This document shows positions 61,063 through 63,048 of a stretch of DNA of 64,000 nucleotides, piece after piece. Each line of letters opens with the position of its first letter. The first letter of the stretch is position 1. The notes below the pieces were generated by a model. That model was not told the DNA's origin, did no database searches, and saw only the letters and a program-made list of their open reading frames with translations. Origin of the DNA: Candidatus Nitrosopelagicus sp. Lineage in GTDB: Archaea > Thermoproteota > Nitrososphaeria > Nitrososphaerales > Nitrosopumilaceae. The stretch spans positions 42,519 to 106,518 of the forward strand of contig JAOJYB010000003.1 of the NCBI GenBank assembly GCA_028242535.1, written 5' to 3'. A program made the translations under genes and the position numbers.

Positions 61063-61551
61063 TTAGAACTTTATTCCAAAAGTAACTCTTCTGTTTAGAA
61101 CATAATTTATGGCACTTGCAACTGCAATTCCAATTATCGCTCCATACATGTGATAAAATGCACTACTCTCAACTAAAGTGACTGTAATTCCTAATTGTAT
61201 AGCCATTCCAACTGCACTAACTATTAAAAATTTGACATACATGACAGAATTTCTCTGGTCTTTTACAAAACTACCAAATGTCCAATATCTGTTGAAAAAG
61301 AAATTTGTAGTAATTGAAACTGAAATTGCTATAATTTGAGATGCAACATACCAAAATCCTCCAATGTCTGTTAGAAGATACAATAATCCTAGATTTACTA
61401 GAACACCGGTTGCACCAACTATGTAAAATTGAACCGCATGTTTTGCAAATAATGACAATCCGCCTTTCTTTTTTTCGTCCTCTATAGTCATGTCCCTCTT
61501 GAATGGACCTTCTATAATTAAGAAACTGATCAAATCAATTAAAATTTTCAA
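61063..61551 (-). CDS. GtrA-family membrane protein
   Basis: Four TMs; FYIVGATGVLVNLGLLYLLTD, SITTNFFFNRYWTF, VASAINYVLNRRVTFG. Confidence 0.85.
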   Translation of the reverse strand: MKILIDLISFLIIEGPFKRDMTIEDEKKKGGLSLFAKHAVQFYIVGATGVLVNLGLLYLLTDIGGFWYVASQIIAISVSITTNFFFNRYWTFGSFVKDQRNSVMYVKFLIVSAVGMAIQLGITVTLVESSAFYHMYGAIIGIAVASAINYVLNRRVTFGIKF

Positions 61552-61618
61552 AAAAGCCTAGTTTTTTTTGTAAAAATTATGGATATATTTTAAATATGAT
61601 AAAGACCTATAGCAAGTA

Positions 61619-61750
61619 ATGCGGAAGGATGTAAATCCTATCGATTAGACCTGCGTGGTCCTGCGAAGCAGAAAATCAAGTGAGCACATTGTTGCTTCAA
61701 GTGAGGGAATCTCACATTGCTTTGCCGAAGGGCCACGCCCCCATTAATTT
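61619..61750 (+). ncRNA. unidentified structured ncRNA candidate
   Basis: Intergenic; TATA-like TTTTAAATAT upstream; long-range pairing 61653-61661 with 61730-61738 and 61663-61670 with 61718-61725; internal hairpins; strand and ends inferred. Confidence 0.55.
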
Positions 61751-61753
61751 AGC

Positions 61754-62269
61754 CTAGATGCTTCTATCTACTTTCGATAAAGAGATGCTTACAGACCCTT
61801 CCAAATTTCCATCTCTCTGAATAGTGATCTCATACCTTGCATCTCCTTCTGTTTTTGGAAATTGGACAAATTTCTGACCAAGATATTCCCAGGTATAATA
61901 TTTTGAGACGCCTGTATCAACTAAACTTCGTTCCAAAATAAATTCCTCAGAAAAAATTTCTGTTTTGACAGGATCATCCAAGTAATATTTCTGATTTTCT
62001 GGAATCACTCCATCGATTATCAATCTGATTTTTTTAGGTGAATCTCCCATAGGAACAAATCCAATTTCGTACGTTCCTTCTTCTATTACTCCTAAACTAG
62101 TCATGATAGTTGTCTTACCATGAAACTCTTGTCCTGAAATTCGAAAATCCCATATCTCTCCACCTGAGCGTTTTTGTTCATCTCCACCTGGATTCATCGA
62201 TGCACCATATACCATTGAAATTACAATTAATGCTATGACTACGCCCCCAACAATCACCATTTTATTCAT
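61754..62269 (-). CDS. membrane-anchored hypothetical protein
   Basis: N-terminal TM MNKMVIVGGVVIALIVISMVYG. Confidence 0.6.
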   Translation of the reverse strand: MNKMVIVGGVVIALIVISMVYGASMNPGGDEQKRSGGEIWDFRISGQEFHGKTTIMTSLGVIEEGTYEIGFVPMGDSPKKIRLIIDGVIPENQKYYLDDPVKTEIFSEEFILERSLVDTGVSKYYTWEYLGQKFVQFPKTEGDARYEITIQRDGNLEGSVSISLSKVDRSI

Positions 62270-62388
62270 AATCTAGGCATGAATCTTCCAAATTAAAGCC
62301 ATTTTGGTGAATTTTAGTCATACATTTTCCATAATGTGTGAACCATTATTCACACCGGAAATTAATAACATATTTCAAAACACAACGC

Positions 62389-63048
62389 ATGGGAAGTTTC
62401 CAAGACAAATGGTCTGCTCCACAAAAGCAAAGTTTTGTAGATAAATTAGGTGATACCTTCAAACCAAAAGGATCACTAAAACCAAGAGTCGAAATGGCTG
62501 TAAAACGATTACAGGCTCAAATCGGAAAACTTGACGGCATGTGCCAAAAACTCCAAGAAAGAGACCAGAAAATTTTCCAAAAAATCGTAGCTGCTCAACA
62601 AGCACACGACACCTATTCAAGTAAAGTATTATCAAATGAACTAGTTGAAGTTCGTAAAGTTAACAAAATAATGTCCAACGCCAAAATGGGCTTGGAAAGA
62701 ATTGAATTAAGATTAACAACCTTCCATGACTTGGGAGATACAGTCACCACATTGATGCCAACAATTGGCCTCATGAATGGACTCAAATCATCACTTGTCA
62801 AATTCATGCCAGGTGCAGACCAAGAGATTGGTAGAATGACTGAGATGTTAGGTGGACTAATGACTGAAACCTTCAGCAGCAGCGGATCATCTTTCGGAGT
62901 TGAAGAATCAACAAACAGCGAATCTGATAGCATCCTAGCAGAAGCAGCAGCAGTTGCAGAATCACAATCAGGCGAACAATTCCCATCAGTACCATCAACT
63001 GGATTGGAGCAATTTAACGTCCCAACTTCTGAATCAAAATTTATGTAA
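62389..63048 (+). CDS. ESCRT-III-like (Snf7/CdvB family) protein
   Basis: Basic helical N-terminus with KLDGMCQKLQERDQKIFQKIVAAQQAHDTYSSKVLSNELVEVRKVNKIMSNAKMGLERIELRL; ATG 62389 preferred over track start 62338. Confidence 0.75.
   Translation: MGSFQDKWSAPQKQSFVDKLGDTFKPKGSLKPRVEMAVKRLQAQIGKLDGMCQKLQERDQKIFQKIVAAQQAHDTYSSKVLSNELVEVRKVNKIMSNAKMGLERIELRLTTFHDLGDTVTTLMPTIGLMNGLKSSLVKFMPGADQEIGRMTEMLGGLMTETFSSSGSSFGVEESTNSESDSILAEAAAVAESQSGEQFPSVPSTGLEQFNVPTSESKFM

Follow-up and report, generated by a model that had tools for sequence, protein, structure and literature searches.

A putative structured RNA gene with a conserved nine-codon reading frame in the Nitrosopumilaceae

The locus and its neighbouring genes

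The window analysed in this study is a stretch of 64,000 nucleotides from Candidatus Nitrosopelagicus sp. (contig JAOJYB010000003.1), in which two protein-coding genes of the minus strand enclose a short intergenic region (Table 1). A preliminary description of the window had placed an unidentified structured RNA between these two genes, and this was upheld by the lack of any Rfam match and by compensatory changes in the homologues, with no data on transcription. Based on the comparisons given below, the plus strand from approximately 61619 to 61750 is a free-standing structured RNA gene that spans about 130 nt and has a promoter of its own, for which there are no transcript data.

The protein encoded on the 3' side is 143-171 aa long and belongs to an unknown family; its stop codon is located about 10 nt from the end of the RNA model in Nitrosopelagicus and not more than a few nucleotides from it in most relatives. 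Two genes away, within a conserved neighbourhood, a plus-strand gene (62338-63048) encodes a protein that looked CdvB/ESCRT-III-like by eye and had no Pfam match at 0.001. The nearest next gene was on the opposite strand and close in 39 of the 45 loci compared, many of which represent one syntenic copy in different species and are therefore not independent. Four copies (L069, L071, L074, and L079) were found 34-101 nt upstream of same-strand genes, where action in cis is possible; the same-strand genes past these copies were CorA-, superoxide-dismutase-, and UbiX-like by eye and unrelated to one another.

Table 1. Positions of the genes, promoter, reading frame and helices at the locus, numbered from the first nucleotide of the window.
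Feature	Position	Strand	Remarks
Upstream neighbour, GtrA-family membrane protein	61063..61551	-	PF04138, E 3.9e-25; transcribed away from the RNA
TATA box, TTAAATA	61590..61596	+	29 nt from its first base to the ATG
Micro-ORF, ATGCGGAAGGATGTAAATCCTATCGATTAG (ATG...TAG; MRKDVNPID*)	61619..61648	+	Start, stop and length conserved; presumed leaderless
P2 hairpin within the micro-ORF, AGGAT-GTAA-ATCCT	61626..61639	+	Frequent, not universal
Spacer between stop codon and P3, 4 nt	61649..61652	+	4 nt in 83/132 homologues, 3 nt in 32/132
P3, 5' strand, GCGTGGTCC	61653..61661	+	98.8% of cells paired; two-sided changes in 7 of 9 pairs (unfitted alignment)
P4, 5' strand, GCGAAGCA	61663..61670	+	Two-sided changes in 6 of 6 pairs tested
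P5 hairpin, core GCA/TGC	61684..61695	+	Variable in both sequence and length
P6 hairpin, GTGAG-GGAAT-CTCAC	61701..61715	+	94% of cells paired; two-sided changes in 4 of 5 pairs; loop strongly conserved
P4, 3' strand, TGCTTTGC	61718..61725	+	Pair test on the unfitted alignment
P3, 3' strand, GGGCCACGC	61730..61738	+	Pair test on the unfitted alignment
Presumed 3' end, CCCCATTAATTT	61739..61753	+	T-rich tract weak here; T-rich after P3 in many relatives
Convergent neighbour, 171-aa protein	61754..62269	-	Adjoins this RNA copy across the family; no Pfam match

Fold, covariation and distribution of the RNA

The plus strand of positions 61588-61753 folded with -47.6 kcal/mol (z -2.73), which was not equalled by any of 200 shuffled sequences. 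An element on the minus strand was rejected because its fold was weaker (z -1.42) and because the G-U pairs suit the plus strand. Both long stems (P3 and P4) were located exactly at the coordinates given for them in the preliminary description, and the hairpin that it had noted with a GGAAT loop is real, conserved across the homologues (P6), and has the family consensus GAGAG-GNAAU-CUCUC. The AAGTGA/TTGCTT hairpin that it had likewise placed inside the long stems was also present, but is merely the local form of the variable hairpin P5.

In an alignment of 45 homologues that was fitted to the structure, 28 of the 36 pairs had two-sided changes, with 122 cells changed on both sides versus 33 after shuffling. 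Since this alignment was structure-fitted, a plain MAFFT alignment not fitted to the structure was made, using only the 3' part of 38 diverse copies, from which P3 and P4 were recovered unaided by RNAalifold. For P3, P4, and P6 together, 96.6% of the cells in this unfitted alignment could pair and 17 of the 20 pairs had two-sided changes; the number of two-sided cells was 71, versus 15.1 +/- 4.6 in the shuffled and 5-16 in the slid controls. The shuffled controls leave the relatedness of the sequences in, and the slid controls remove it. Compensatory changes in both long stems, which the preliminary description had named as a check on the RNA, are thereby present among the homologues in the unfitted alignment.

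The comparison with Rfam, another of its proposed checks, gave no Rfam 15 match over the RNA in the window down to E = 5, and eight diverged relatives likewise had no match over the RNA at E-values up to 1. The only matches to Rfam in the whole window were two tRNAs; the same number was returned by ARAGORN, both distant in the window, and a tRNA or tmRNA was therefore rejected. No match was obtained to RNase P RNA or SRP RNA (RF00373 and RF01857), the genes of which sit elsewhere in the genome (G000, C22:28764-29045 and C23:45178-45489). An H/ACA guide RNA, for which an ANA trinucleotide 3' of the stem and, below a K-turn, a two-sided guide pocket would be expected, was rejected by inspection: in the window, as in most relatives, P3 is not followed by ANA, and the loop between P3 and P4 is nearly confined to one side. 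The possibility that P6 pairs with the 16S rRNA at its 3' end was considered without computation and discarded, because a conserved A of the loop would be a mismatch. No description of such an RNA was found in the open-licence full-text literature, and to our knowledge there is no precedent for it.

A BLAST search yielded 12 matches among 61 relatives, all of them within Ca. Nitrosopelagicus. The covariance model built from these homologues (R1) matched 168 of 200 Nitrosopumilaceae genomes from 15 of 22 genera, with one to four copies per genome. A second model (R2) matched 160 of 300 genomes of the class, and among the matches listed all were from Nitrosopumilaceae with at most four per genome. 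No match was obtained in the other families searched, and under stricter filters no copy was found in 70 genomes of a Nitrososphaeraceae-like family (f8). Several genera of the Nitrosopumilaceae had no copy detectable at the sensitivity of the model, and the members without one included G034, G079, and G094 (genus g5), G067 (g34), and G061 (g28); the g5 genomes are small, at 0.8 Mb, with a completeness of 79-95%. As judged from these searches, the RNA gene is near family-wide and multi-copy in the Nitrosopumilaceae and has not been catalogued before.

A scan of 85,462 species genomes for an exact pattern returned 82 stretches that were labelled as thaumarchaeal save three, the thaumarchaeal ones mostly as Nitrosopumilus, Nitrosarchaeum, and Nitrosopelagicus. 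Of the other three, one was labelled as a Hyphomicrobiales MAG, one as a Chitinophagaceae MAG, and one as an "uncultured archaeon". The two bacterial MAG contigs (L182 and L184) carry the Nitrosopumilus-type peptide MPKDIIPID and are probably mis-binned. A viral origin was rejected, the pattern being absent from 2.9 million viral contigs.

The nine-codon frame, its start and its peptide

The preliminary description was right about the structure and missed that the 5' part of the RNA is a conserved nine-codon ORF, which makes it, by inference, a translated and not a purely non-coding RNA. The 5' hairpin with a GNRA-type loop that had been described there does exist (P2), but it sits within the nine-codon frame, is not universal, and its loop is generally not GNRA. 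Compared across homologues the reading frame is nearly invariant, unlike the hairpin, and the 30-mers of the ORF fold better than their shuffles (mean z -2.6).

Position 3 of the covariance model corresponds to the A of the start codon. Among 147 full and distinct homologues the automatic scan found a start and a stop in 142, of which 140 had eight or nine codons (nine codons in 132, eight in 8, twelve in one, and five in one). The start codons were ATG (137), TTG (3), and GTG (2), and the stop codons TAA (99), TAG (33), and TGA (10). The five-codon frame (L203:1481-1594) was a spurious match on the opposite strand. Four of the five frameless sequences (L210, L213, L214, and L215) had eight or nine codons once the offset was widened, and the fifth (L170) was outside this recheck. 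In the frame of the ORF, where eight-codon variants were scored as premature, 6 of 136 sequences had premature stops; when the two alternative frames were read, 113 and 31 sequences did. All 40 representatives below 80% identity had eight or nine codons, 39 by the script and L213 (MAEKSRQMT) after the wider search.

A further model (R3), derived from the 3' part alone with the ORF region excluded, was run on 16 complete genomes, where it recovered the known copies together with strongly diverged ones. All seven diverged copies (L253-L259), which were absent from the 149-sequence homologue set, had a nine-codon frame directly upstream that ended within about 1 nt of the start of the model and had a TATA heptamer 28-29 nt before its ATG; their peptides were MQKRVNYTA, MVKRVNYNK, MEKRAIFTA, MQKRVNSKP, MHKDISSEA, MRKDANYDK, and MRKDANSDK. 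Randomly chosen sites of this DNA have a frame of eight or nine codons in about 4% of cases. The regions tested were taken by their position in the match list, and the upstream DNA of L258 and L259 had already been viewed beforehand. One additional R3 copy (L260) has a GTG start. No nine-codon frame was found upstream of the one sub-threshold match (L261, E 0.31), nor was one seen at a weak match with a plausible P3 and P6 (L263, G064:C52:3577-3671, E 0.026), which may be a degenerate copy or may have arisen by chance. The comparative case that the nine-codon frame is translated is strong, in the absence of ribosome-profiling or peptide data, and one requirement of a dual-function small RNA, a translated ORF on the RNA, is thus met by comparative evidence alone.

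The TATA-like box of the preliminary description proved to be real and is conserved in the homologues, but the start, which had been expected about 25 nt past it, is instead placed at the A of the ATG. The distance of 29 nt from the first base of the heptamer to the ATG was found in 105 of 132 homologues, and a distance of 28-29 nt in nearly all diverged copies. For the protein genes of the window, TATA-like motifs cluster 27-32 nt before the ATG (9 of 16). Archaeal TATA boxes are generally located about 26 nt before the transcription start. Taken together, these spacings would fit a leaderless transcript, and transcription is presumed to start at the ATG or within 1-2 bases of it, an inference made without data on transcript ends. 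At the other end of the frame P3 follows the stop codon after 3-5 nt, with a distance of 3-4 nt in 115 of 132 homologues. In a ribosome that holds the stop codon in its A site, a distance of 3-4 nt would put P3 at +10 to +11 from the first nucleotide in the P site, and the base of P3 would in general lie 10-12 nt downstream of that nucleotide; in bacteria the helicase of the ribosome is placed at about +11. Readthrough of the stop codon into P3-P6 was rejected, as the lengths modulo 3 were mixed and the in-frame continuation was not preferentially open.

The homologues share the frame with its start, stop, and length, but their peptides diverge. Changes between close pairs in codons 2-9 were synonymous in 6 and non-synonymous in 30 cases (8.9 and 27.1 expected), and the mean entropy of codon positions 1, 2, and 3 was 0.99, 1.27, and 1.13, respectively, such that position 3 was not the most variable. 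A second requirement of a dual-function small RNA, a functional and selected peptide, is not met by these counts. The hairpin of the ORF constrains the same bases, and the missing third-position bias is therefore no clean test of selection on the peptide.

Interpretation of the presumably translated RNA

The comparison supports a separate conserved structured gene, a conserved translated frame, an unconserved peptide, and set distances between promoter, start, stop, and P3; the leaderless start, the docking of the ribosome on P3, and any regulatory effect are inferred, and transcription is without data. A purely structural non-coding RNA, in which a conserved 5' hairpin merely happens to contain a frame, was the view of the preliminary description and agrees with the folding of the ORF region as a hairpin. 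It is scarcely tenable against the interchange of ATG, GTG, and TTG and of TAA, TAG, and TGA, lengths of whole eight or nine codons, and diverged copies that retain the frame with little or no hairpin. A cis-acting attenuator, with a leader peptide and a terminator controlling a downstream gene on the same strand, would account for a leader ORF with a stem after it, for the T-rich tract that many relatives have there, and for the few copies shortly upstream of same-strand genes. The neighbour is nevertheless close and on the opposite strand at most loci, so that a same-strand regulated gene is lacking; the same-strand genes that do occur are unrelated to one another, and the leader has no conserved regulatory codons and differs widely in peptide among copies, which makes this explanation very improbable.

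Two further explanations are unlikely to a similar degree and cannot be dismissed. If the locus were a micropeptide gene, the nine-residue peptide would be the product and P3-P6 a stabilising structured 3' untranslated region, consistent with the conserved frame and with the small variation within the syntenic copy (MPKDIIPID, MRKDVNPID, and MRKDINPID); across copies, however, the peptides are almost wholly different (MSLVTKSNE, MTLVVRAMD, MHMARKSMA, and MQKRVNYTA) with the structure retained, and there is neither a synonymous excess in close pairs nor a most variable third codon position. For a conventional trans-acting small RNA, in which P3-P6 binds mRNAs or proteins and translation is incidental or only protects the 5' end from decay, there are no target data; its free-standing position and one to four paralogues per genome speak for it, as do the variability of P5 and the conservation of the P6 loop, both of which could be contact sites, but an incidental frame would be unlikely to keep eight or nine codons and the spacing to P3 in all copies.

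The lack of peptide conservation together with the fixed length and spacing leads us to prefer a role for the ribosome itself, and suggests, as far as comparative data can, that the reading of the ORF by a ribosome and not the peptide made is what matters. The transcript would begin at or within 1-2 bases of the AUG, where a ribosome would initiate and translate nine codons to the stop, the fixed length but not the peptide sequence being of importance. Once the stop codon is in the A site, P3 would have its base where the mRNA enters the small subunit. The ribosome would hereby act as the moving part that melts the hairpin of the ORF, docks at P3, and is held or sensed there, and the P3-P6 domain may be active only in a ribosome-dependent manner, whether it serves to park ribosomes or belongs to a translation-gated small RNA. 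We give even chances to this preferred reading, in which a structured RNA is translated without a leader, the ribosome that terminates on it has P3 at its mRNA entry, and the P3-P6 domain depends on the ribosome; there are no transcript, ribosome, or peptide data, and no target, partner, or phenotype is known.

The bacterial dual-function small RNAs SgrS/SgrT and Spot 42/SpfP are likewise small transcripts that combine a short ORF with a structured part for regulation, but their peptides are functional and conserved and their ORFs longer, whereas the archaeal RNA has an unconserved peptide and a fixed nine (eight) codons. The trp, his, erm, and mgtL leader attenuators share with it a short 5' ORF and a ribosome beside RNA stems; in contrast to these, the archaeal RNA has no consistent same-strand downstream gene and no conserved peptide, is free-standing, and occurs in several copies. 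Archaeal small RNAs with ribosome occupancy, which is only proposed for the RNA described here, are known from Haloferax volcanii, a member of another phylum, where they were found by ribosome profiling; the abstract of that study gives no fixed-length ORF or shared sequence (PMC12482152). Tan1, an abundant RNA of marine group II Euryarchaeota, is also an unclassified structured RNA of planktonic archaea, but is 229 nt long and belongs to another phylum (PMC5069720).

If a peptide or a conventional target mechanism were the function, the RNA would rank among the translated small RNAs. A wider proposal, which we make only tentatively and consider rather less probable than the preferred reading itself, is that of an archaeal RNA family in which the translating ribosome is a structural or sensing part. 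Its leaderless ORF, being of fixed length, would bring in exactly one ribosome, which would terminate with the neighbouring RNA domain at its mRNA entry, and the RNA would in this way park, count, or sense ribosomes whatever the peptide. The Nitrosopumilaceae rank among the ocean's most abundant ammonia oxidisers, and cultured strains exist in this family, which makes the idea directly testable; if true, it would represent a new mode of coupling ribosomes to RNA.
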